Shown piece after piece: positions 5,299 through 28,582 of a DNA stretch of 35,601 nucleotides. Source of the DNA: Methanobacteriota archaeon (GTDB lineage: Archaea > Thermoplasmatota > Poseidoniia > Poseidoniales > Poseidoniaceae). A model generated the notes under the pieces. It was not told the origin of the DNA. It saw nothing but the letters and a program-made list of their open reading frames with translations, and did no database searches. The stretch is from assembly GCA_011522915.1 (NCBI GenBank), contig WTIA01000104.1:1-35601 (forward strand), read 5' to 3'. Made by a program: the position numbers and the translations under genes. Numbering within the stretch: the stretch's first letter is position 1; each line of letters starts with the position of its first letter.

Positions 5299-8200
5299 TC
5301 ACAACAGGTCATCTAAGAAGGAAGTGTCTATTTCTTCTTGCGGTCTTTGTTGCTGCAAAGGCTGTGTAGGGGTGTAGGTTTGTCCCCAGTTTTGATTTTG
5401 CGGCGGAGGGGTTTGGTTTGGTTGTTGTATTCTTTGTGCGGCAGCATAAATTTCGTTTTGTTGCGCTGGCTGAATTGCTTGTGGAGCCGCAACAGGAGGC
5501 GCTGCTTGTCCTCCAAATGTGCCTACGTCGTCCCAACCTGAACGTGCTTCAATTCCCCACGTTGCTTCTTGTAATTCCCATTGCTTATCTCTAACTGGCT
5601 TTTTTCCTCTTCCTCTCAGTAGTAACATAAGCAGAAGTACGGAAACTAAAACCATGATTGCAATGAATAGGTTATCTGTTGTCAATAACTCTCCTAAATC
5701 TGTAGAAGAGTCCTTCTCTGAATCATCTTTCGAGGAATCACCAGAATCTTCCTGAGGATCTAATCTTTGAGATTCTATCAATTTCCTATTATTTACATCA
5801 TCTTTTGCGGATACTCCAATCCACCATGAGGTCTCATTTGAGAGCTCGGAAAATTCTTGTGGGGTGATTAAAAACGTGTTCGAAGCACTTGTCTCACCTA
5901 CATTGTTAGCATCTGCAACATTTTGGAACTGAGAGTCTGAGATGTATACAACGTATCCTCTAACACTTGGATTTGTTGAATGTTCCCATGAAACTAAGAT
6001 TGAATCGTCTACCCATTGGAGAGAAATTCCTTCAATGTCAGGCAAATATGCGCCCACATCATCAATGCCATCATCAATCGCTATTGCTGTGGATGTCACT
6101 AAATTATCGTAGTGAGCATTTCCAGACCAGTCAACAGGAACTACAGCTACTGTTACTGGTGTATTTGGAACAACTAGCGTATCGAATACCAAAATTTCGA
6201 TGGTTAGAGGAAGAGTTGGTGACCTATCCAAGGTCGCAATTGGGGATTTAACTGTACCCGTATCGCCTACAGAAGTGAAGGTGAATGCAGCAGCATACAC
6301 CTCGTAGAATGCCACATCACTGTCTTCTGATAATTCGAATTCCAGCATAACAGCGGTACCATCGTCACCTGGTCGGTCATACAGATTTAGTTCACTTAAT
6401 CGTTCAGGAGCAGTGGTATCTGCTAGATTGTCTACAGGAGTAGCAGTAGCTGTATTCAGATTGTTAAGGTGCACATTTCCTTTTACATCGTGAACTGTGA
6501 TCGCAACATAAAGAGGGATATCTGGTACAATCTGCTTGGGAGAAGAAGAAGACAGGTCATTACCGCCATACAATGCTGTATTGAGGGTTAATTCGATTGG
6601 ACTTTTCTCAGTATCAATCCATTGTTTGTCCATAACAATACAACCGCATATTCCCGGTTCAGTTCCGCCGGCATTCCACATCTCTGTCAGGTCACCAAGA
6701 GGATACTCTGATGCCCATATTACATAGAAATCAAAATCGTCAACCTCGCTAGGAGACCACGAAATATCGATTGCAGTGCCATCGTCATTCGGATGGTCCC
6801 AAGCAGATAATTCACTGATTCTTTCAGGTTCTGAAGGGCCGTTCAAATTGTTCACAAATGGTGTAACTTCTAGAACGGTTACGTCTCCTGTATCACCATT
6901 TAGCCACTTGTCGAATGCAACAGCACCAATCCAGTATGCTTGGCCATCGATCAATGAATCTTCACCGATGGAATCGATAATTGTCATGTTGGTTTCGCAA
7001 TCGGGTACGATTGCTACTTCCACCATATCATCGACATTGGTTGGGATACTTTGTCCCAAGTCGATATTTGCTGGGTTTTCAGCTGGCATCATGTATACTG
7101 CAACAAAGGCACAATCATCTGCCACCGAGTTTTGCCATCCAATTTGTACACGACCACCATCGTCATTGGGTACGTCTTCTGCCCACACACCCGTTAGTTT
7201 CGGAGGTGGAACGCCGTCATTAATTCCGCCTGTTGGTACTATTGGGCCGATAACGGTTGCATTAACCAAGTCCTCTTGTCCAGATTCATCCACACATGTG
7301 AACGCTAGCCAATGTGGTTTTCCAGCCTCAAGTGTCATCACACTTGCGTTCCCGATTTGTGGAATAAACTCGGTGTGTACTTCTAGTCCGAGGGCGTTCG
7401 AGATGTCAGAGGTCGATGCATAGACATTAGTAGTTGCCAAATCCAAAGCCTCGCACCTAGCCCACTCCGCAAATACTTCACCATCAGCATTGACTACGCC
7501 TCCACCTGAAATGGCAGTTGCCCATTTTGGAGGAATTGGGACTTCATCGCTTGGAGTAGCAGGACCAAATGGTATCGATGGTGTTCCGAATCTGCCATCG
7601 TTGTACTCAACAACAACCACTGCCCAATATTCAACCCCATCTTGCAACGGTTGTCCATTAATTGTTGAAATTTCAGTTTGTAGTCTTGAGTGCAGGCTAA
7701 CCGTTGCATCCGGAGCACGAGGCTGGAGGTCAGCAGCGGTAGGCTGAGTTGCCCACGGACCTTCGTTTAAGTAAACGGCATATCTTGCAAAGTCATCATC
7801 GTGTACCAATGACCAATTTGCCATGAGTGTTTGACCACCATCATCGGGTCTGTCCCACAGTGATAGGCCCTGAACAGGGGTTTCCGTTCTATACCAGTCG
7901 TAAGTCAATTTAACCCACATGCTTCCATTTGATGGCGAGTTTAGACTCAGACTAACAAGTCGTGTACCGTTAAGCAAAACGCCATTGTCTATAGCATACT
8001 GCATGCTTGTAATGAAGGCTGGATCGTTGGATAGATTGACAGTTGAATTCCACTTCAAGTCAACTAACTTAGCCCAGGTTGCAGCACCATCAACGGGAGA
8101 TGAGAAAGTAAGCGGAGCGGTTTGCATCAAAATACCATGAGGCCCCGTAGTACCGTCATTTGAGAGTGTAACAGGATTGGCAGGGTCAACAACTGTTACT

Positions 8201-11200
8201 TGCATTCCCGGATGAGTGAAATTGGAAATGTCTTGGAATTGTAACTCAAATCCAACAGATAGAGGGTCAGCGCGTCTCATCGAAATCTGTGGAACTTCTT
8301 GTCCTGAATTTAGTTCCCACATCTTTAGTCCGTCTGCTGTTGCGATAGAGACGTATGAATTACTGATTACGCTTCCACCATTTGAATCACTTACTGCATA
8401 TCTTCCAATAATCTGTCCAGGATTTGAACCCGATTGAATGACAGTTGCCCCGTTTTCACCGACTATGATTAGATAATTGCCGTCAGATCTCATACTGTAA
8501 ACAGGCCAATCCTGCATAGCAAAGGTAGTGACACCGGTCACGAAATCTCCAGTACTTCTAGTCCAGTGAACCAGAGGTCCAACATCGGTTGCAATGTGAA
8601 CTCCGTAAAGGTCGGAAGTTACCGCAGTAACTCTGTTAGAAGGAAGTTGGTCGAATTGATGGAGTGAAATTACACTTTGTGTTGAGGTGTCGAATTGGGT
8701 GATTCCGGGCCTATCTGTTCCTCTTCCGTCGTGAGAAATGAATAGGCTGTTTTGGGTTACAGTAACTCCTGATGCGTCTGTAGTGGTCGTAATAGCACTG
8801 GTTAGTCCCCAAGTTGACAATCCCATCAGTCCGTCTGACTTATCGAAGTTATTGATTGACATTGACGAGGTGTCGTATTGGGAAAGGCCGCTTGGTGTAG
8901 CCATCCATATGTCGCCATCAAATTCGATTACGTCTTCCACGTATGAGATAGGTAGCCCGTCAAGTGACGTCCACGCAGTTTCCCAGTTATCTCCTGTAGC
9001 GTTCCATCTAGCAACACCGTTGTCTGTGGCGATGTAAATCGTTTCTGAGGTAATTTGACCAACACTGTTGGAATTGGTAACGGTTAGGAATGAGTTGACG
9101 TTATTTGAAGGCAGACCAGCCAGCAGTCTACCTGCTGTATATGTTTCAGTAGTTGTATTGAAAATTTGGATTCCGGCTGAAGATGAACCAGAACCTTGTA
9201 ATCCAATGAAAAGGTCATCGCCTAGAACCTTCAGGCCATCTTGGAAATTATGGATTCCCGTAGGCAGTGGTAACAATGTACCATTGGTTGTATCTAGTAG
9301 CCGTAAGCCTCTGTTGTTGCTAGCAAGGTACAAATCTGTACCTACCAGTTCGATATCAGTAACCGCTGCGTTTGCAGGAATAGTCCAACCTTTTTGCCAT
9401 TCCACAGATCCATTTGGAAGCTTGATTCCTTGCAAAACTCCAGATCCTGTATTTTGCCATGAAGCAGACGCAACCCAAATGTGGGTTTGATTACCTGACA
9501 TCGAGGTAACTTGACCGCTTACAAGGTTGGGTAGCGCATGAATTGTATTCTGACCTGCTTGATTGATTGTATCCACGTGTGAGTATCCAGATGTACCACC
9601 TGCTTGACCGATTAACCACTCTGTACCCAACCAATCTACTGAAGAGACGGCTGAACCTGTGGACCTAATGCCGGCGGTTCCAACAGATGCACCATTAGCA
9701 GATAAAATCGCTAATCCTCCGCCGATTACATTGTCTCCTTGGTTTCCAATATCATAGCCGATTACAAGTTTGCCCGAAGCATATGTCATTGCGCCCCACC
9801 AAACAGGGTCGCTTGGAATATTGTGAGTTGATGAAGAAAGACTCGACAACCAACCGCTGTTAGCATAATCATAGCGAGAAATCGGTTCACCATTGTCATG
9901 GTAAGCAACATACAAGATGTCATTTGCATCGTCGCATGCTACAGCCGCAGCATTTCCGTCATCCAATCGGGTTGATGTTGTAAAGGATGAAAGAATTGTA
10001 CCATTTTCTAAATCGAATCTAGCAACTCCTCCATTGTTTGCCGTTATTGAAACGTGGAATATCCCTGCACACATCTCCATTCCTATCGGATATCCATTTG
10101 GAATTCCGTTCGAGCCGCCATCCCACGAAACCCAGTTTCCTGACGAGTCGAGATGCATAATCTCTCCATCAATTCCCTGCCATCCTTGATTTCTAGCAGT
10201 TCCAACAACCAAGTCAGTGCCATTTGTCCACAGTTCGTAAACGACATCATCAGCCGTATTTGGCAGACCATTACCTGCAGTCCAATCTGACAACCATTGT
10301 TCTGAATTCTCATCGTACCTAGCAATACCGTCTTCGGTTGCGAAAAGAGTTTCTCCATCGAATTCTACAATTTCTCTGATTGGGAACTCAAGGTCATCCC
10401 ATTCATCTAACTTGGTTCCATTTGAATAGAACGCTTCAAGTTTTTCTTCGCCCCAAGAAATCCACTGTATGCCGTTTGAGGAAATGTGCGATGTGACTCT
10501 ATTTACAGCTCCGCTTGGCAGTAGTTCTGCCTGCCATGAATCGGTGCTTAGGTTGTAAAGTGCGATTCCTCCACTCCCCTCTGTATTCCACCATTGTCCG
10601 CTCGCTACTGCGATGTGTAGAACATCACCAATGATTTCCATTCCGTAAACGTCTCCCCCGTTTTCATCTAATTGCACACCAGCGTCAAGCACCGATTTTG
10701 TGGTGAAATTTACGATATCTATCCTGTAAACACTATCCGAAGTAAACTGTTGGTGGTAATACATTGTATCTCCATAAATTGCCAAATCATACGGGTTTCC
10801 GCTGCCTACATACAGGCTACCGGTTTTTTCAATATCGTATACTTCAGATCCGGTTGTAACGTTGAGAAGCTGGAAACCATCTGCTCCGCCCACCCATATT
10901 TGGCCAGGTCTTATGTCAGCGATTAGTCCTGTTACATCGCCATTTCCTCCGTCAAGAACGTTACTTTCGGTCCAAGTTGGTAACCATTCATTGTTAGGGA
11001 TGTCATATCTTGCAACGCCTATTCCGTTCAAGCCGATGTAAGCGATATCGTCTATAATTTCGACAAGAGCATTGTTTGTATTTTCTCCTGCTTCCCATGT
11101 ATCGTAAACAGTGAAAGAAGATTTATCGATTAATCCAATACCACTAGCAGTCCCTCCAAAGACTGTTGAGGCGTTCATACCTACTGCGCTTACCGCCCAG

Positions 11201-13659
11201 TTTGGCATTCCATCTTGTGGATTCATACAATCGTCAATTGCTCTAGTTGAAATAGAGTACTTGCATACCCCTATGTTTGTTCCAGCGTAAAGGTCTCCCC
11301 CGTTAGGAGAAGAGTCAATTGCGAAATCGAAAAATTGGAATGGCCGCAGATTCCAGGTGCTACCACTTGTAAGTTCTGATGCTGTATTTCCGTCCCAATA
11401 GATTGCTCCGTTTGAAGTACCAATGTACATACCTGAGTTGCCTGCAACCGACTCCATTGCGTAGACTTGATTTGTCGGAAGAATCTCTGTAGACCCTGCG
11501 TTTGCTCTATTCGGTTTCACGGTCAATGGAATTAGTATTTCCCCGGTCGAAAGGTCCTTTCTCGCAACTCCGTAGCCTGGTAGTCCAATATGCAAAACTT
11601 GGGGGTTAGTTCCCAATATTGCAATTGGTGCGAAGTCTACGTCATTTATTCCAGTTGAGACCCAAGAGCCAAGGAACGAATTGTTCGCAATAATGTACCT
11701 ATTTAGCCCATCTTCAGGGGTTCCAATGTATGCAACACCGTTGTGTATCGCAACGCCGGTTGGGTTGTTTGAATCTAGATCAGTTGTCGCCTCGTTTAAG
11801 GAAATAACGGGGTCGTTTGTAGATTTGTTAAATACTGAAGCACCATCTTCGGGATGGATTGCAACAACCCAATCGCCCTCAACATCAAGCCCTGAAACAT
11901 CATCTGATTGTAATCCGTCAGATGAGTCCCATGTATCGATTACATTTCCAAAAGAGTCAACGATATGTATTCCACTGCCCATTGTGCTAACCAGAATATT
12001 ACTTCCATCGTTCACAATTTGTGAGATAACATCACCCATGTCGATTGGACTTAGCCATCTTGATTGGCCTACCGAGTATCTATCAAGGTAGTTTTCACTT
12101 CCAACGTAAATCACCCCGTTGAATTGCATAGCGTCTTCCATATCGCCCGAACTTGGACTGCTACCGATTACAAAATCACCAGTGTAGAGGGGCGAATTAC
12201 CCGGTTCAAGCATTGCAAGAACCGCACTACCATCTGTGACCATAACGGTATCATTGGTTGGACTTCTTGAACCTGAATTTGGCCAATAGAGGATATTTTT
12301 ACCGCCCCCGATTAGACCGAAATTAGTAAGAGGAATTGATGAGGAAAAAGTGCCAGAATTGGTATTGTAAACGTGGACAGTATCCGAGGTAAGAATTTGA
12401 ATTTCGTTATTCACTACTGTAATTCCAGGTACTTCATCAGAAGACAACCAGTTTCCGCTATTCCAGGTTGCCAACCAGAAGTTATTGGTTAACTCTCTTC
12501 TAGCAATACCAGCATCGAAGGATGAAATTAGGAGTTGATTTCCAGCTATGGCGAAATCGCTGATGAAATCAGAATGCAGAGTATTCGCTGTAGACCAAGG
12601 AGATAATGGAGACATTGACCCAACGTCCCATCTTCCAACTCCTCCATCCAGCAATGAAACATAGATGATGCTGTTGTGCTCAAAAGTTTTCCAAGGAGTT
12701 CCAGAAGGCCAATTGCTAGTTGAACTCGCTTGCTCTAATGTCCATCCTGTTCCTGCAGTATTAATCCTGAAAACTCCCGAGTTACTGAACGCGAAAAGGT
12801 CTCCGTTGCTGGCGAAATGAGTGTTGCTCCACTCCCCGCCGGATGGCTCTGCAGGTAAATCTGGACCCCAACTAGTGTCTGATAGATTGAGAGAGTGAAT
12901 GTATCCTTGATCAGTTGTTACCAACATCAAGCTGTTTGAAATATCCATTTCCAAATCAAGAATATAGTCTCCATCCTCTGAATTTTGGATTTCAAAAATA
13001 TCGATTGCGCTTGGAGAGGATTGGGCATCCAAGACTAGTATGAATGTCCCAATCGCAGCGTACATCCTTCCATCTGTTGGGTGAATTTCATAATCTTGAA
13101 TGTATAACTCAACAGGTTCAAGGGAGGTGAACGGGTCTGCAGGGGCCAGTGCTTCCAAGATAAATTCAGTGATTTCAGAGCCCGACGGCATAGTTACCGT
13201 GGCACCAACATCAGCGTTTGGTGCTAATCTTGCTTGATGCGGATTGTTGGAGTCGAAACCAAAGGTTTGCCCCATCCATCCATGATTTCTCCAATCAAAG
13301 AAAACTTGGCCGGTATCAGGAGAAAATAGCAGAGGTTGCTGAATTGTTACTCCTTGAGAGCCATCGACTCTGACTTCCATGGACACGTTTCCAAGAATTG
13401 CACCCGGAGCGAAATCTAATACCAACTCATCGCTAGCCTGAGTTCCATTTATTGGATTTGCACCGGTGGCGTTCATCAGCACCCAGCCAGTGTCTTCTGT
13501 CCCCTCCATCGGCCATATTACTTCGTTCGGCCCATCGTGTGCACTAACCACTGGAGAGTATAGAACTGGACCTAATGAAGCAAGCAACATCACACAGACA
13601 AGACCCACTGCCCTAAGACCGGATTTGGCAGAGCCTACGGCTCTGTGGGAGTTGTTCAT
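5299..13659 (-). CDS. Giant membrane-anchored beta-propeller/Fn3-like surface protein, 2786 aa
   Basis: Residues 1-40 form a signal peptide with cleavage after SPVVSA. From about residue 170 to 1800 runs a long series of propeller blades with an x-I/V-x-G-T/S-x-x-G-(V/I)-x-R-(Y/W)-D pattern (for example GDIWMATPSGLSQYD, ETIYIATDNGVARW, GDLYAGTNIGVCKY), resembling the Reg_prop blades of sensor ectodomains. Residues about 1935-2630 hold five Fn3-like modules, four with a W/Y-x-x-P-x-DDG signature (DRPDDGG, VPNDDGG, HPNDDGT, RPGDDGT). An acidic Ser/Asp stretch precedes one transmembrane helix (2664-2681). The last 105 residues are cytoplasmic and Pro/Gln-rich, ending EEIDTSFLDDLL. No kinase, protease or other output domain follows. 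It heads the minus-strand run and its 3' end abuts or overlaps pabC. A TATA-like box lies about 21 nt upstream. Role: sensing, adhesion or polymer binding at the surface (inference). Confidence 0.85.
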   Translation of the reverse strand: MNNSHRAVGSAKSGLRAVGLVCVMLLASLGPVLYSPVVSAHDGPNEVIWPMEGTEDTGWVLMNATGANPINGTQASDELVLDFAPGAILGNVSMEVRVDGSQGVTIQQPLLFSPDTGQVFFDWRNHGWMGQTFGFDSNNPHQARLAPNADVGATVTMPSGSEITEFILEALAPADPFTSLEPVELYIQDYEIHPTDGRMYAAIGTFILVLDAQSSPSAIDIFEIQNSEDGDYILDLEMDISNSLMLVTTDQGYIHSLNLSDTSWGPDLPAEPSGGEWSNTHFASNGDLFAFSNSGVFRINTAGTGWTLEQASSTSNWPSGTPWKTFEHNSIIYVSLLDGGVGRWDVGSMSPLSPWSTANTLHSDFISDFAIAGNQLLISSFDAGIARRELTNNFWLATWNSGNWLSSDEVPGITVVNNEIQILTSDTVHVYNTNSGTFSSSIPLTNFGLIGGGKNILYWPNSGSRSPTNDTVMVTDGSAVLAMLEPGNSPLYTGDFVIGSSPSSGDMEDAMQFNGVIYVGSENYLDRYSVGQSRWLSPIDMGDVISQIVNDGSNILVSTMGSGIHIVDSFGNVIDTWDSSDGLQSDDVSGLDVEGDWVVAIHPEDGASVFNKSTNDPVISLNEATTDLDSNNPTGVAIHNGVAYIGTPEDGLNRYIIANNSFLGSWVSTGINDVDFAPIAILGTNPQVLHIGLPGYGVARKDLSTGEILIPLTVKPNRANAGSTEILPTNQVYAMESVAGNSGMYIGTSNGAIYWDGNTASELTSGSTWNLRPFQFFDFAIDSSPNGGDLYAGTNIGVCKYSISTRAIDDCMNPQDGMPNWAVSAVGMNASTVFGGTASGIGLIDKSSFTVYDTWEAGENTNNALVEIIDDIAYIGLNGIGVARYDIPNNEWLPTWTESNVLDGGNGDVTGLIADIRPGQIWVGGADGFQLLNVTTGSEVYDIEKTGSLYVGSGNPYDLAIYGDTMYYHQQFTSDSVYRIDIVNFTTKSVLDAGVQLDENGGDVYGMEIIGDVLHIAVASGQWWNTEGSGGIALYNLSTDSWQAELLPSGAVNRVTSHISSNGIQWISWGEEKLEAFYSNGTKLDEWDDLEFPIREIVEFDGETLFATEDGIARYDENSEQWLSDWTAGNGLPNTADDVVYELWTNGTDLVVGTARNQGWQGIDGEIMHLDSSGNWVSWDGGSNGIPNGYPIGMEMCAGIFHVSITANNGGVARFDLENGTILSSFTTSTRLDDGNAAAVACDDANDILYVAYHDNGEPISRYDYANSGWLSSLSSSTHNIPSDPVWWGAMTYASGKLVIGYDIGNQGDNVIGGGLAILSANGASVGTAGIRSTGSAVSSVDWLGTEWLIGQAGGTSGYSHVDTINQAGQNTIHALPNLVSGQVTSMSGNQTHIWVASASWQNTGSGVLQGIKLPNGSVEWQKGWTIPANAAVTDIELVGTDLYLASNNRGLRLLDTTNGTLLPLPTGIHNFQDGLKVLGDDLFIGLQGSGSSSAGIQIFNTTTETYTAGRLLAGLPSNNVNSFLTVTNSNSVGQITSETIYIATDNGVARWNATGDNWETAWTSLDGLPISYVEDVIEFDGDIWMATPSGLSQYDTSSMSINNFDKSDGLMGLSTWGLTSAITTTTDASGVTVTQNSLFISHDGRGTDRPGITQFDTSTQSVISLHQFDQLPSNRVTAVTSDLYGVHIATDVGPLVHWTRSTGDFVTGVTTFAMQDWPVYSMRSDGNYLIIVGENGATVIQSGSNPGQIIGRYAVSDSNGGSVISNSYVSIATADGLKMWELNSGQEVPQISMRRADPLSVGFELQFQDISNFTHPGMQVTVVDPANPVTLSNDGTTGPHGILMQTAPLTFSSPVDGAATWAKLVDLKWNSTVNLSNDPAFITSMQYAIDNGVLLNGTRLVSLSLNSPSNGSMWVKLTYDWYRTETPVQGLSLWDRPDDGGQTLMANWSLVHDDDFARYAVYLNEGPWATQPTAADLQPRAPDATVSLHSRLQTEISTINGQPLQDGVEYWAVVVVEYNDGRFGTPSIPFGPATPSDEVPIPPKWATAISGGGVVNADGEVFAEWARCEALDLATTNVYASTSDISNALGLEVHTEFIPQIGNASVMTLEAGKPHWLAFTCVDESGQEDLVNATVIGPIVPTGGINDGVPPPKLTGVWAEDVPNDDGGRVQIGWQNSVADDCAFVAVYMMPAENPANIDLGQSIPTNVDDMVEVAIVPDCETNMTIIDSIGEDSLIDGQAYWIGAVAFDKWLNGDTGDVTVLEVTPFVNNLNGPSEPERISELSAWDHPNDDGTAIDISWSPSEVDDFDFYVIWASEYPLGDLTEMWNAGGTEPGICGCIVMDKQWIDTEKSPIELTLNTALYGGNDLSSSSPKQIVPDIPLYVAITVHDVKGNVHLNNLNTATATPVDNLADTTAPERLSELNLYDRPGDDGTAVMLEFELSEDSDVAFYEVYAAAFTFTSVGDTGTVKSPIATLDRSPTLPLTIEILVFDTLVVPNTPVTVAVVPVDWSGNAHYDNLVTSTAIAIDDGIDDVGAYLPDIEGISLQWVDDSILVSWEHSTNPSVRGYVVYISDSQFQNVADANNVGETSASNTFLITPQEFSELSNETSWWIGVSAKDDVNNRKLIESQRLDPQEDSGDSSKDDSEKDSSTDLGELLTTDNLFIAIMVLVSVLLLMLLLRGRGKKPVRDKQWELQEATWGIEARSGWDDVGTFGGQAAPPVAAPQAIQPAQQNEIYAAAQRIQQPNQTPPPQNQNWGQTYTPTQPLQQQRPQEEIDTSFLDDLL

Positions 13660-21306: not shown

Positions 21307-22293
21307 ATGTCGCCATTGGATGGGATTGTCAGGGTTGTCGCAGACTCCGATTTAGACGGATTAATGGCTGCTGCTGTACTCAAGGCAAGCAAGCCCGAAA
21401 TCGAAGTACACTTTGCTCATCCTGCGCTCTTGAGGGCCGGCAGTATCGACCATTTAATTGACAGACAAACTGCAATTTGTGATTTACCGTTTCATGAGAA
21501 ATGTGGATTATATCTCGACCACCATCTAACCAACCGTCCATCTCCAGAAGAGCAACAAGAGTTCGAAGATGCGGGAGGAATATGTCACTGGAGAGATACT
21601 CCGTCGGCAGCAAGGGCCGCATTTGAGCTAATGAAAGACCAACTCGACCTTTCACATTTGGAAGAGGTAATGCCGATAGTAGACGCCCTTGATTCAGGAG
21701 GCATATCATTGCAGGACTTTATGGAAGACGGCCCAGTAATCCGTTTATCCCGCTCCCTTTCTCTTTCTGATGTGAGCCACATGCAAGTTGTTCTACATCA
21801 ATTTGCCTCAGGTATGTCGATGGAAGAGATTCTAGATAGCCATAGTGAACGCTTGTCTAAACTTGCATTGGAGAGAGAGGAACATGCGAGAGTTGTGAAA
21901 GACTGTACGAAAATAGTAGACGGTCTTGCAATCTGTGATCTCAGTGAATCTGGCCTGAGAAGTAATGGTTACTTGGTGACAGCGTTAGCCGGACCTGAGG
22001 CATTAGCATGCTGTGTAATTCATGGCTACTATGATGGAACTATTGAAAATCCAAATCGTCCAGCATTAGGTGCTTCATTTTATGCAAATTCATTCCGAGA
22101 GGAAGAAAATCCGTATGATTTGTCAATGCTTGCTACATTGCTGGACGAAACTGGAGGCGGCCACGCAAATGCTTGTGGTTGTCGTGTTCAGGCACAGGAT
22201 AATAAGAATATAATAACTGAATCAGATAAGGAATACAACCTAGGTGAATGGCTTGATTTATGGGCAAAGAGAGATTCTCTTATGTTGAGATGA
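21307..22293 (+). CDS. DHH/DHHA1 family phosphoesterase
   Basis: 328 residues. DSDLDG at 13-18 is the first metal-binding motif (DxDxDG) and LDHHLTNR (DHH at 71-73) the signature motif; the C-terminal DHHA1 domain ends with the GGGHANACGCRV motif that binds substrate phosphate. The domain order and length fit the RecJ-like/NrnA-like superfamily: manganese-dependent exonucleases or phosphodiesterases acting on short oligonucleotides, cyclic dinucleotides or DNA ends. I cannot assign which substrate. It has its own TATA-like box, and 102 nt separate it from the transporter gene downstream. It is soluble, with no transmembrane helix or added domain. Confidence 0.85.
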   Translation: MSPLDGIVRVVADSDLDGLMAAAVLKASKPEIEVHFAHPALLRAGSIDHLIDRQTAICDLPFHEKCGLYLDHHLTNRPSPEEQQEFEDAGGICHWRDTPSAARAAFELMKDQLDLSHLEEVMPIVDALDSGGISLQDFMEDGPVIRLSRSLSLSDVSHMQVVLHQFASGMSMEEILDSHSERLSKLALEREEHARVVKDCTKIVDGLAICDLSESGLRSNGYLVTALAGPEALACCVIHGYYDGTIENPNRPALGASFYANSFREEENPYDLSMLATLLDETGGGHANACGCRVQAQDNKNIITESDKEYNLGEWLDLWAKRDSLMLR

Positions 22294-22395: not shown

Positions 22396-24723
22396 ATGGA
22401 AAGCGTCACTGACCCTGAAATGCTGAAGGACAGGGCGTTTTACAAACTTGGCGAATTCACCTACGACAACCGAAAATCAGTGCTAATAATTGGTTTGTTA
22501 TCCTGTTTCTTAATGTCGTCTCTAGTCGCTATGGGGCCAAACTGGGCAGAATCTTGGGGAGAAGGAGATTTAGAGTCAATAAATGCTGGAGATACCCTAG
22601 AAGACGCATTTTTCGGAGAAGAAGAGGATGTCCAGGGATTCACATATCTTGTTCATCATGATTCCCTAAATGATTCCTCAGAGGAGTGGCGACAAGAAGT
22701 AATCGAGGCTTTGTCAACATTCTCTGAAATGGATGATGTCGAAATTGAGTATTCTTGGGAGAAGACTGGCGACGAACGTGACGAATTTGTATACGAAGAC
22801 GATGATGGTTTTTGGGCAAAAAATAGAGTGATAATTAGCCTTGATAGAAAAGAAGCAAAATCGCTGTACTCAGACAACTACGAATCTATTGAGATAGATT
22901 CTGATTTCGAATCATGGAGAACTGGAAACATTGCAATAGATGTGACATTCGATACAAGAATTCAGGACGATCTCATCAAGGCAGAATTGGTATCCGGACC
23001 TCTTACATTGATTATACTTGGAATTGTGTTTGGTACTCTGATAGCAGCTCTTCTGCCGCTGGGAGTTGCAATACTGACTGTCCTTGCCGCAATGGGTATA
23101 ACAATATGGCTTTCAAACACTACCGATGTCACTCAGTATGCTTTGAATATTATCACATTGATTGGTATCGGAGTATCGGTTGATTATTCACTATTCATGG
23201 TTAATAGGTTCAGAGAAGAACTCAATCGAGATAGAGACCTAAGAACATCCACTGCAATGACTGTGGCAACCGCAGGTAAAGCCGTCTTCTTTAGCGGAGT
23301 TACCGTTGCAATAGGGTTGATGGGAATGCTGTTTTTCGAGAACACAGGCCTACCTAGCCTGGGCATCGGTGGTACACTTGCAGTAACCGTTGCGATGATT
23401 TTCTCGATAATTGTACTGCCTGCAGTTCTTGCTATGCTTGGTCATCGTCTTTTCGATTACAAAATACCGTTTGCATTCAGCACCGATAACGACGACGGTG
23501 AGGGTATCTGGTCCAAAATTGCAACAACTGTGATGGAGAGGCCGTGGGCTGTATTAATTCCGACTCTGATTATCTTACTTGGAGCAGGTCTACCTTTCTT
23601 CCAAGCTGATTTTTCGATTGCATCCAGAGACGCCCTTCCACCTGATGATGAGACGCGAGTCGGATTCGAACACATGGATGAAAAATGGCCGGAAGGTGCA
23701 GTAAATTCAGCAACGGTTGTGATTGACTTTGATGGAGAAGATCCACTATCTGAAAACAATATTCGCGTACTTCACAGATGGATGAGTGAACAATTAGAAG
23801 ATGAGAGAGTATTGGAATCCTTTGGTTATGCTATGCCATATCCAGGCGTTAACGAATCGATGGCGGTAGCGTATTGGCAAACACCAAGCGAAAATTTGAC
23901 AGTTGAGGAAGTGGCTACTCGTGATTACATAAGAGAGCAATTCGTTTCCGATAATGTGACATACATTGTCTTCTCACTCGACGGCCCAATAACAGGAAAG
24001 GATAGTCGTAATTTCGTAGGTGAAGTAAGAGATGAAAGGTCGGACTTAATCGATGACTTGAGCATGGGCGAAGACGGCGTTTTGATGGTTGCTGGATTTT
24101 CAGCATACAGTTTAGATGTTCTTGATGCGATAGTCGAGAATCTACCAATCGCAATAATCTTCATTTTTTCCTCAACTATTGTACTGATATTCATCCAGGT
24201 GAGAAGCGTAATCATACCAATAAAAGCCATAATCATGAATATACTATCAATCTCAGCATCCTTTGGAATGCTGGTATTTGTGTTCCAATGGGGTAATGGT
24301 GCCGAACTCTTGAACTTCACACCACAGCCGATAGAAGCGACAAATCCTGTGATAATGTTCTGTATTGTTTTCGGACTTTCGATGGATTATGAGGTTCTTA
24401 TGCTGTCTAGGATTCACGAGGAGTGGGAAGTAACCGGTGACAACACACAAGCGGTTGCAAACGGCCTTCAGAAAACTGGCCGGCTAATCACCGGTGCTGC
24501 AGCGATCATGGTCGTTGTCTTCATGGCGTTCGGTTTGTCCTCGGTTGTAATATTGAAACAAATCGGACTTGGACTTGCATTGGCAATCTTACTCGATGCT
24601 ACGATTGTCAGAGCCCTTGTAGTTCCATCGACAATGCGCCTGATGGGCAAATGGAATTGGTGGAGTCCAAAATGGCTTGGCGGGTCAAAGGACCTCGAAG
24701 ATGTAAAGGAATCCGAGGAATGA
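22396..24723 (+). CDS. MMPL/RND superfamily membrane transporter
   Basis: 775 residues with the duplicated RND layout. The first helix (about 29-47) is followed by an acidic outer loop of about 150 residues, then a five-helix bundle including LTLIILGIVFGTLIAALLPL and GIGVSVDYSLFMVNRFREEL. The second half repeats this: helix at about 380-400, a second outer loop (PPDDETRVGFEHMDEKWPEG), then LPIAIIFIFSSTIVLIFIQV and FGLSMDYEVLMLSRIHEEW. The two GxSxDYxxxMxxRxxEE segments are the typical proton-relay and amphipathic elements of MMPL proteins. Known relatives move lipids, hopanoids or other hydrophobic compounds using the proton gradient; the cargo here is unknown. AGGCGGT lies 5 nt before the ATG. 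The 3' end overlaps a convergent gene by 39 nt. Confidence 0.88.
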   Translation: MESVTDPEMLKDRAFYKLGEFTYDNRKSVLIIGLLSCFLMSSLVAMGPNWAESWGEGDLESINAGDTLEDAFFGEEEDVQGFTYLVHHDSLNDSSEEWRQEVIEALSTFSEMDDVEIEYSWEKTGDERDEFVYEDDDGFWAKNRVIISLDRKEAKSLYSDNYESIEIDSDFESWRTGNIAIDVTFDTRIQDDLIKAELVSGPLTLIILGIVFGTLIAALLPLGVAILTVLAAMGITIWLSNTTDVTQYALNIITLIGIGVSVDYSLFMVNRFREELNRDRDLRTSTAMTVATAGKAVFFSGVTVAIGLMGMLFFENTGLPSLGIGGTLAVTVAMIFSIIVLPAVLAMLGHRLFDYKIPFAFSTDNDDGEGIWSKIATTVMERPWAVLIPTLIILLGAGLPFFQADFSIASRDALPPDDETRVGFEHMDEKWPEGAVNSATVVIDFDGEDPLSENNIRVLHRWMSEQLEDERVLESFGYAMPYPGVNESMAVAYWQTPSENLTVEEVATRDYIREQFVSDNVTYIVFSLDGPITGKDSRNFVGEVRDERSDLIDDLSMGEDGVLMVAGFSAYSLDVLDAIVENLPIAIIFIFSSTIVLIFIQVRSVIIPIKAIIMNILSISASFGMLVFVFQWGNGAELLNFTPQPIEATNPVIMFCIVFGLSMDYEVLMLSRIHEEWEVTGDNTQAVANGLQKTGRLITGAAAIMVVVFMAFGLSSVVILKQIGLGLALAILLDATIVRALVVPSTMRLMGKWNWWSPKWLGGSKDLEDVKESEE

Positions 24724-25172: not shown

Positions 25173-25191
25173 AGAGGTCGGACTAGGGGGC

Positions 25192-25208
25192 TCACCCCGT
25201 AGGGGTGA
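25192..25208 (+). promoter_or_regulatory. Perfect 7-bp triloop hairpin covering the ribosome-binding site
   Basis: TCACCCC (25192-25198) pairs exactly with GGGGTGA (25202-25208) around a GTA loop. GGGGTGA is also the only Shine-Dalgarno-like sequence for the gene that starts at GTG 25205 or ATG 25211, so in RNA the hairpin would hide the ribosome-binding site. Translational control is a reasonable inference. Confidence 0.5.
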
Positions 25209-25210
25209 AT

Positions 25211-28200
25211 ATGCTGCAGGAGAACAACCTTGCTATTTGCCTCAAAACCGGGATGTTGGACAATCTCCCTCCCAGAACAAGGCAATCCAAAGTTGCAAAG
25301 ACTGCTGAATGGAGAGCTCTAGACAAACCCTGGAAATCATTACTTCTGATTTGCTTACATGAAGTACAAATCCCTGACGAAGAAGAAGGGACGAGTGCAC
25401 CGATGATGCGAGGCAGAAGAGGAGCACGTGGCAGGCGTGGTTCAAGAACTAATTCAGGACCGCTTGAATGGCTTCCAAATGCCGATGAAGTGTTGATTGC
25501 AGACGGTTCTCCAGCAGCCTTCCGTCTAGCAGTTTTACTGATACGAAAGACCCTATTCGCTGACGAATGGGAGGATTCCTGGGATGAGATACTGGATGGT
25601 CTAAGAGATGAAGCAACAAATGATGGTGTACATCCAGTCTGGTCGAAGATGGCAGAGGCAACCCCAATCCTTGCACAATTTGCTTCATTTCCCAAATCTG
25701 AAATTGTTGAAGTAGTGGAGGACAAACTCAATTTGTCAAAGGCAAAAATAGATCCGAAAAACGCAAAGAAGTTGGCAAAAATCTTGTCCGATTTTGAAAC
25801 CGTTTCATCGGATGCAGGTGTAAAAATGGCTCTCAATAAGGCTAAAGCCCAACTAAACGGTAAAAGAGGATTAAGGGATATTTCTGGCCTTGAAAGTTTG
25901 GAAGGAGATGCTTCTGTAATCAGTGTAATGTTACATATCCATTTAGGAAATGATGCCACAGATTCATTGAAAGAATTATCAAAAGTAGATTCTGATTTAG
26001 CCGATTCATTCAGCGATTTGGTTGAACTTAGAAAAGGAAATGCTTCCGATTGGAATCATTCACGCTCGCTTACAGATGACGATGATTTATCCCTAGCAAG
26101 GAGAAGAGAGGCTTGGGCGTTAATGCCTGCTGAGGCAGCAGACTTGTCAAGTAGTGAAATCCAAAAAGGAATCGATTTGGCCTCGAGTTCAAAGCAAAAA
26201 GAAACCATGATTTGGTGGAAATTGGCTGCATTGGTCAGTGAAGGTTCATCCGACCTTGCTCTGGAATTACTTACCTCACTAACCGTTGAAGCGGATGCAG
26301 ATATCAGTACACTAATTCCACTCGTCCAACAACTTGGTGAAAGTGCTTCTAACTGGTTGGTATCACAAATTGACTTATTTTCTGAAAAATCCCTATCCGA
26401 GATAGTAACAGATTTCAGCCTTGACGAGTCTATTCGTACCGCTGCAGCATGCAGACTTCACGATAGTGGAGCTTCGATTGCGATTGAAGAATCCATTGAC
26501 TTATTCTCTAGAAATTTAGATCTCATTCGTCTTGCAGAGATACTGTTCGTTGACGAGCAAAGGTGCATTGAGAATCCTTATGCGACTTTATTGGTCGCTC
26601 ATCTCTTGCCTGCAAAATCCAAAGGTTGGGATTTTGAAACAATTAGAAAAGCAAGGAAAAATGCCCTAAGTACTGTTGAAAACGCAGAGGTGCCAGACGC
26701 AATCTCACCTGCAAGTAAAGGGCTTATCCTAATGTTAGATGGTGGCGCACAGTCCGATGACGATTGGGTTGTAGAAACATTGGATAAGAGTGGAATTAAA
26801 GCATTCAATAATTGCAAACAAGCGCTCAAGGATGGCGGCGATGGCCTAGCAGATTCAAAAATACTTGATAATTTGATTAAGAGCGTATCTGATGCAGACC
26901 TATCCGATATTGAATCTAGACTATTCAATGCAGTAATCGAGACACTCAGGCTTAATCGCGCATCTTGGTTATTGCAGACTGGTAAATCCAAGGGAGTGGT
27001 TGAACTTCTAGACGGCCTTCTTTCAGGAGACGTCACCGCTATGCCTATGATGCAAGCGGTGCGTCATCTCGTATTGGAATATGATATTGGTTTAACCAAC
27101 TTAGTGTCCTGGTATCAAGAAAACGATCCTCAATCGCCATGGCACACGCTTGCTCGTGCTGCTATGCACGTCAGCAACAATGACGAACTAAACGCAGCAC
27201 GTGACTATAAGAAAGCCGGCGACCACGAAGAATTCGATTATGAGCACAGGATATTGCTACATCGTAAGGCGTTAATCCACCTTGCCCATGCAGAGCAATG
27301 GTCAGAAGCAGTCTCTTTGTTGGAGCAAGAGCCCGCTCTAAAGTCTGCTTTGACAAAGAGATTCCAACTTTATCTCAATGTTTCACACGTTGCTTCAAAC
27401 AAACGCAATACGGATGAAGCAACTCGAATGTTGACAAATTTCGTTAAGAGAACGGTGATGGTAGAACAGGAAGATCAGTTTGGTAAAATCGAGAATGTAG
27501 AGCGAGTGAAGCACTCGGAAGAAGAGCTAGATATGTTGAGGAATTATCCAACTTCTCACCCCCGCCCTCTTCCTCAAGAACCATTCTCTGGAAGAGTAAA
27601 AGCAGCACTAAATTCACTCCAAAGAGAACGTCGAAGGAATCGACATACATTCGAGAATCGATATTCTCAAGCAATGCTTCTCGAACCTTCTGGGGAGGAA
27701 ATTTACGAAATTGCTCTTGCGGCATCTGAAGAAAGGCCACTAGAAGGACTAATGCTGCTAGAAAGAGCACAAAATTCGGGTAAATTTAGTGTCTTGGACA
27801 TTAAGCGGCTGGCAGATGCAGAAAGAAGGCTGTTTGCGATTCACCGCCGCAATTTACCAGTTAAGCAAAGGTCTTACTTGCGTCATTTGGCGCTAACGCC
27901 ATTGGTAATTATCGATACCAATATCTTAATCGATGAACTACAATCGAGGATTTCAGATAAACTTGGAATAAATTCTGACGCCTCTCTTGACTTAGGAGGA
28001 AGAGGAAGATTCCACAGAATTCTGAAGCATAGAGCAGCGGAAGGGGTAATTCACCTGTGGTTACCAAAGATTGTTCAAAATGAGTTAATCGCTATAGCAA
28101 CCGATATTCAGAGAATAAGAGATAGATTCTCAGAGACCTTAGTTTCTGAAGAAGATTTGCAATCTGTACTTAACGAGGAATCACTCGTCAGTATTGCTAA

Positions 28201-28582
28201 GGAAGTAATTTCACAATTTTCCAATTGGAAACCATTGGATTTGCATATAGAGTCCGAAGCTGATGATGAAGATATTCGTGCTGATTTAGAGAGATTCTTG
28301 ATCGATCACACGGAAGTTTATGATGAAATTACTGCGATGAAGAGAATACACGGTGAACCAATGAGGACTGTAATTGATGGCAAAGACGTCTACCCAGAAA
28401 AGGCAGACAAATCTCTGATGTGTCTATGTACTGCAATGGCAAATAGACCATTGGATGAACTTGGAAGTATCTTAATCGCAACAAGAGATTCTGATTTCGC
28501 TTTAGTCGCTAGAGCCATTGAAGAGAGATTTGGATTTGGAGTCATTGCAAACAGCCGTGATCTAAACTCTTGGCTTCGCTAA
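25211..28582 (+). CDS. Large helical-repeat protein with C-terminal PIN nuclease domain
   Basis: 1123 residues from ATG 25211 (GTG at 25205 adds two; residue numbers here count from GTG). A basic RGG-like patch (MRGRRGARGRRGSR) near residues 60-80 suits RNA contact. Residues about 150-890 are almost wholly helical, acidic and Leu/Ala-rich; about 645-755 look TPR-like (AARDYKKAGDHEEF, EHRILLHRKALIHLAHAEQW followed by SEAVSLLEQ). The last 225 residues are a PIN domain: VIIDTNILID (Asp904), IVQNELIAI (Glu960), EKADKSLMC (Asp1068) and ATRDSDFALVARAI (Asp1095, Asp1097), the expected acidic metal-binding set. PIN domains are Mg/Mn-dependent RNases. No antitoxin-like small gene lies beside it. An in-frame stop at 25184 rules out a more upstream start. 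Probable role: RNA cleavage guided by a repeat scaffold (inference). Confidence 0.82.
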   Translation: MLQENNLAICLKTGMLDNLPPRTRQSKVAKTAEWRALDKPWKSLLLICLHEVQIPDEEEGTSAPMMRGRRGARGRRGSRTNSGPLEWLPNADEVLIADGSPAAFRLAVLLIRKTLFADEWEDSWDEILDGLRDEATNDGVHPVWSKMAEATPILAQFASFPKSEIVEVVEDKLNLSKAKIDPKNAKKLAKILSDFETVSSDAGVKMALNKAKAQLNGKRGLRDISGLESLEGDASVISVMLHIHLGNDATDSLKELSKVDSDLADSFSDLVELRKGNASDWNHSRSLTDDDDLSLARRREAWALMPAEAADLSSSEIQKGIDLASSSKQKETMIWWKLAALVSEGSSDLALELLTSLTVEADADISTLIPLVQQLGESASNWLVSQIDLFSEKSLSEIVTDFSLDESIRTAAACRLHDSGASIAIEESIDLFSRNLDLIRLAEILFVDEQRCIENPYATLLVAHLLPAKSKGWDFETIRKARKNALSTVENAEVPDAISPASKGLILMLDGGAQSDDDWVVETLDKSGIKAFNNCKQALKDGGDGLADSKILDNLIKSVSDADLSDIESRLFNAVIETLRLNRASWLLQTGKSKGVVELLDGLLSGDVTAMPMMQAVRHLVLEYDIGLTNLVSWYQENDPQSPWHTLARAAMHVSNNDELNAARDYKKAGDHEEFDYEHRILLHRKALIHLAHAEQWSEAVSLLEQEPALKSALTKRFQLYLNVSHVASNKRNTDEATRMLTNFVKRTVMVEQEDQFGKIENVERVKHSEEELDMLRNYPTSHPRPLPQEPFSGRVKAALNSLQRERRRNRHTFENRYSQAMLLEPSGEEIYEIALAASEERPLEGLMLLERAQNSGKFSVLDIKRLADAERRLFAIHRRNLPVKQRSYLRHLALTPLVIIDTNILIDELQSRISDKLGINSDASLDLGGRGRFHRILKHRAAEGVIHLWLPKIVQNELIAIATDIQRIRDRFSETLVSEEDLQSVLNEESLVSIAKEVISQFSNWKPLDLHIESEADDEDIRADLERFLIDHTEVYDEITAMKRIHGEPMRTVIDGKDVYPEKADKSLMCLCTAMANRPLDELGSILIATRDSDFALVARAIEERFGFGVIANSRDLNSWLR

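Follow-up and report, generated by a model that had tools for sequence, protein, structure and literature searches.

The window (the whole stretch of DNA analysed here, 35,601 nucleotides) carries a large open frame on the forward strand, at 25205-28582 (+), with 1125 codons when counted from GTG. The first-pass annotation had described this large ORF, and its extent was upheld here with a different likely start. Orthologues begin at an equivalent position with M-L-Q-E-N-N, using ATG, GTG or TTG as the codon. Because they have the same start position, we prefer ATG 25211 as the most likely start, which would give a protein of 1123 aa (referred to here as solenoid-PIN). The GTG used previously overlaps the sequence GGGGTGA just upstream of this ATG. 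Residue numbers follow the ATG and equal the earlier GTG-based numbers minus 2. Full-length orthologues share 61-81% identity inside the genus and 28-47% across the order.

Table 1. Predicted features of the solenoid-PIN gene and protein (window coordinates, ATG residue numbering)
Feature	Coordinates	Strand	Basis
Solenoid-PIN gene	25211..28582, stop codon included	+	Open frame, full-length orthologues, common start position
N-terminal helices, residues 2-49	25214..25357	+	AlphaFold2 model
Disordered loop, residues 58-81, with Arg/Gly patch MRGRRGARGRRGSR (66-79)	25382..25453	+	pLDDT <50, R+G enrichment
Acidic alpha-solenoid body, residues 102-744	25514..27442	+	AlphaFold2; 34 helices
Beta hairpin, residues 746-768	27446..27514	+	AlphaFold2
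Conserved basic linker, residues 785-818, LPxEPFxGRVKAA...RRRxR	27563..27664	+	Alignment
Long helix leading into PIN domain, residues 861-881	27791..27853	+	AlphaFold2
C-terminal PIN-type nuclease domain, residues 895-1123	27893..28579	+	Model, profile matches, alignment
D902-T903-N904, first catalytic motif (PLVIIDTNIL)	27914..27922	+	Invariant, 45 sequences
E958, second acidic position	28082..28084	+	Invariant, 45 sequences
P1062-E1063-x-x-D1066, third acidic position	28394..28408	+	P1062, E1063, D1066 invariant
D1093-x-D1095-F1096, fourth acidic position (ATRDSDF)	28487..28498	+	Invariant

The gene is flanked upstream by a divergent DUF4079 gene and downstream by a convergent isocitrate dehydrogenase gene. 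No antitoxin-like gene, tRNA or Rfam RNA was identified near it, in agreement with the earlier statement that an adjacent antitoxin is absent. The surrounding syntenic block is kept to varying extent in both families of the order (f1 and f2). As the same block holds unrelated metabolic genes, synteny says little about function.

A conserved near neighbour (21307-22293, +) encodes a DHH-type phosphoesterase-like protein with a weak DHHA1 match and, in relatives, a TDSDLDG motif; searches of three sister-family genomes found zero matches to it. In this genus, an MMPL transporter gene (22396-24723, +) is located between the DHH-type and DUF4079 genes. It is reversed in some relatives and was not found at that place in most others, and the site is a point of insertion or rearrangement. 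Elsewhere in the window, a 2786-aa open frame (5299-13659, -) had zero Pfam matches.

The predicted C-terminal PIN-type domain

Six of 183 Asp/Glu residues are invariant across 45 orthologues, and all six are inside the PIN domain, in the last 230 residues. Five of them occupy the catalytic positions (D902, E958, D1066, D1093 and D1095). The full PIN acidic set proposed in the first pass is therefore invariant, and a check for orthologues without these residues found that all 45 keep the five. The acids follow the PIN order D...E...D...D(xD), with D902 of the DTN motif placed directly after a predicted strand (896-901).

The AlphaFold2 model of the domain has a pLDDT of 87, and its order of strands and helices fits PIN topology. 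Strand 896-901 leads to D902 and strand 948-950 to E958, followed by a long helical insert (966-1050), a helix with D1066, and strand 1084-1090 leading to D1093 and D1095. A structure prediction and fold search of the C-terminal region had been suggested as a check; the predicted topology is compatible with PIN, but the search gave zero PDB fold matches at E <0.001. The best match of the model among viral structures was a phage protein described as “PIN like domain” (E 0.019, probability 0.99).

When single PIN domains were scanned against Pfam (n = 26), PIN matched 10 of the 26 (best 7.5e-4) and PIN_12 matched 7 (best 1.1e-4). PIN_3 and NYN were matched too, and any other model was found in at most three members. 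No model in the Pfam and NCBIfam scans was at or above its curated cut-off. Alignment with hhalign to three small PIN proteins gave E 1e-5 and probability 82, spanning the D and E motifs, a signal not matched by a clear result against one single PIN_12 protein. Searches of PDB sequences with the protein and both profiles returned chance-level matches only, and PHROGs and NCBIfam scans of the protein were uninformative. From sequence and model alike, we consider it very likely that the C-terminal domain is of the PIN type.

Helical body, linker and Arg/Gly loop

The body is predicted to have a two-helix repeat of ~37 residues over 34 helices, i.e., the tandem antiparallel helix pairs in the 34-40 residue range that characterize an alpha-solenoid. 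The net charge is about -33 over residues 93-600, and the earlier description of an acidic helical-repeat body agrees with both this charge and the helical AlphaFold2 model. The top PDB fold matches were the HEAT/TPR solenoids Transportin-3, IFT-A, SKI3 and CAND1 (E 4e-4 to 9e-4). They are generic (TM 0.1-0.2), and such model-based matches indicate fold class only, not kinship. SKI3 is an RNA-decay scaffold, and we counted its occurrence in favour of an RNA-related role. Between the body and the PIN domain, residues L787, P788, G794 and R795 of the basic linker are invariant (45 sequences).

The Arg/Gly patch has 12 R+G per 18 residues; in 100 shuffles the mean was 6.6 and the highest value 9. 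It is placed alike in 44 of the 45 orthologues, in which the R+G-rich stretch starts at residue 48-70. The basic RGG-like patch noted in the first pass thus stands as to enrichment and conserved position, but the copy in the window consists of RG/RRG repeats with zero literal RGG. Many orthologues have RRGGR.

Distribution, inheritance and loss

Of 61 relatives, 55 had a match to solenoid-PIN. Across the phylum, 77 of 293 genomes had one, and each of these 77 belongs to Candidatus Poseidoniales (Marine Group II), archaea that are abundant in surface oceans. At E 0.001, there were zero matches in the sister (third) family of the class or in the remaining phylum. Beyond the phylum, homologues were sought solely by a pattern-based scan of a public genome collection. 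It returned 230 relatives, and the best 80 of these 230 loci were named Euryarchaeota, Poseidoniales, Poseidoniaceae or Poseidonia. Both families of the order keep the fusion in full, and its neighbours as well, which answers the earlier question of orthologues in Poseidoniia. The orthologues make up a genuine family that is restricted to the order, has no curated name and is most probably a variant of the PIN nucleases. A literature search for Poseidoniales or Marine Group II together with the PIN domain found nothing relevant, and a description of this protein did not come up in any of the literature searches.

In the tree, f1 and f2 are each recovered as a clade (support 1.0 and 0.999), and for this reason inheritance looks vertical. 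A close pair of orthologues has dN 0.039 versus dS 0.86, and the gene is, as judged from its sequences, under purifying selection. The copy number is usually one. One genome carries a second copy of the PIN end (G005:C17:4232-5101), which is partial, divergent and 34% identical; contamination or a second strain may explain it.

The gene is absent in three genomes of genus g14. In two of these (G039 and G058) neighbouring genes from either side are there and the solenoid-PIN gene is gone between them, and in the third (G043) the slot beside DUF4079 is occupied by a different gene. Two g14 loci (L178 and L180) have a clean loss between the DHH-type and isocitrate dehydrogenase genes, and DUF4079 was not found there. 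Given that g14 lives without the gene, it is dispensable in this genus and thus not strictly essential. Elsewhere, the absence in G298 looks like the effect of a contig end, as the neighbouring gene is 103 bases from the end on the side where the solenoid-PIN gene should come. In G307, also without a match, the neighbouring gene is 830 bases from the contig end.

Searches of phage, plasmid and viral-contig sequences found zero matches, and a mobile or viral origin was rejected. The layout of a solenoid with a C-terminal nuclease also occurs in defence proteins; on such a reading, solenoid-PIN would have a sensor solenoid that unleashes the PIN nuclease upon infection or stress. A marginal PADLOC HEAT-ARM match (E 0.041) was obtained for one orthologue, but the protein in the window had no PADLOC match, and neither an NTPase nor a sensor domain was detected. 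Moreover, the gene is near-universal at a single fixed chromosomal place and vertically inherited, not patchy, and lacks phage or plasmid matches. A defence or stress effector is quite improbable.

A reading as a VapC-type toxin, unusually extended at its N terminus, would account for the PIN-domain chemistry and for the small PIN proteins among the hhalign partners. However, this 1123-aa protein has no antitoxin gene beside it, is usually encoded once per genome, and occurs order-wide at a fixed locus. We rejected the toxin on gene context and conservation; vertical inheritance, purifying selection and flanking genes on the opposite strand make it barely conceivable.

Proposed role and known systems

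We propose a housekeeping role for solenoid-PIN, as a chromosomally encoded endonuclease that is specific to Poseidoniales and positioned by its solenoid, with RNA as the likely substrate. We put the probability of this reading, which draws on sequence and predicted structure, at roughly 0.6. The PIN domain would be a metal-dependent cutter, with D902, E958, D1066 and D1093/D1095 as ligands of one or two Mg/Mn ions. Binding to RNA and/or a partner complex may be provided by the alpha-solenoid (650 residues) together with the flexible Arg/Gly loop and the basic linker. The solenoid would position the PIN domain, and specificity would come from this scaffold, not from a small VapC-like domain. 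The RNA probably cut would be a substrate of mRNA turnover or surveillance, or of a processing step. We infer catalysis, RNA as the substrate and recruitment by the solenoid. Of the scaffolded, non-toxin PIN layout suggested in the first-pass annotation, the architecture stands (a PIN domain fused to a helical scaffold, not a VapC, with the fusion order-wide), and nuclease activity, RNA rather than DNA as its target, and the RNA-decay role proposed there are predictions.

The main rival reading is DNA cleavage: solenoid-PIN would be a structure-specific nuclease from the FEN1/Exo1/XPG side of the wider PIN-like superfamily, and its solenoid and RG loop would hold a repair complex or the DNA itself. 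RG loops bind both DNA and RNA, a radA gene lies 5 kb from the solenoid-PIN gene, and the PIN model has weak fold matches to human Exo1 (ranks 15, 20 and 23). However, the probability of the Exo1 matches is at most 0.14, the families matched are PIN, PIN_12, PIN_3 and NYN, not XPG/FEN, and the radA surroundings are simply the general syntenic block. We consider a DNA nuclease a rather unlikely explanation.

If solenoid-PIN does act on RNA, its role would be additional to RNase P, Nob1 and the exosome, not instead of them. Among the 60 genomes of the class, archaeal RNase P RNA was identified in 51 and Nob1 in 53, and both also occur in the genus that lost the solenoid-PIN gene. Exosome core genes are present elsewhere in the same genomes. 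Replacement of Nob1, RNase P or the exosome was rejected, as all three are retained alongside in the order. The genome of the window is 78% complete and had no match to RNase P RNA or Rrp41, most likely a result of incompleteness. When RNase J-family proteins were searched for, every genome gave similarly weak matches. Most f1 and f2 genomes encode, in addition to Rrp41 and Rrp42, a further RNase PH-like protein of ~280 aa; most genomes of the sister family have two matches only.

Solenoid-PIN could also be devoted to the processing of one stable RNA, either pre-rRNA or pre-tRNA, with a layout like that of PRORP, which combines a helical-repeat domain with a PIN-like NYN domain (PMC10941002). 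Order-wide conservation would suit such a core process. However, RNase P RNA and Nob1 are present at the frequencies given above and kept in the gene-free genus, and the PRORP zinc module was not identified, so this more specific role appears improbable.

The nearest sequence models of the proposed endonuclease are PIN_12 (PF16289) and PIN (PF01850), which have the order of acidic motifs in common with it. Solenoid-PIN scores below their curated cut-offs, and most of what they match elsewhere in the phylum lies in short open frames, in contrast to the 1123 aa and long helical insert found here. VapC toxins have the same acidic set, but solenoid-PIN is without an antitoxin, is not mobile and shows housekeeping-like conservation. 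Nob1, the archaeal rRNA endonuclease, likewise belongs to the PIN superfamily but is encoded by a separate PF17146 gene in the same genomes, and its PIN_6 profile (PF17146) had no match in the solenoid-PIN protein.

The protein-only RNase P, PRORP, has N-terminal helical repeats and a C-terminal PIN-like metallonuclease (PMC10941002), and solenoid-PIN is predicted to share both elements. It differs in that homology to PRORP was not detectable, the zinc module was not found, the alignment contains no invariant Cys/His set, and RNA-based RNase P is kept in the order. SMG6, the endonuclease of eukaryotic nonsense-mediated decay, comprises a TPR-like helical domain, a long alpha-helix and a C-terminal catalytic PIN-like domain (PMC12923823), a layout like that of solenoid-PIN. 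However, sequence homology to SMG6 is not detectable, the body of solenoid-PIN is much longer, and the SMG5/6/7 14-3-3-like TPR domain was found neither by sequence search nor among the best 50 fold matches listed. We tentatively suggest that solenoid-PIN might be an independently evolved archaeal counterpart of SMG6 and PRORP, and a core RNA surveillance or processing enzyme of Poseidoniales. An order-wide candidate nuclease with defined residues, together with a naturally gene-free genus, makes its role directly testable. If RNA is cut, archaea and eukaryotes would have arrived at the solenoid-plus-PIN combination independently.
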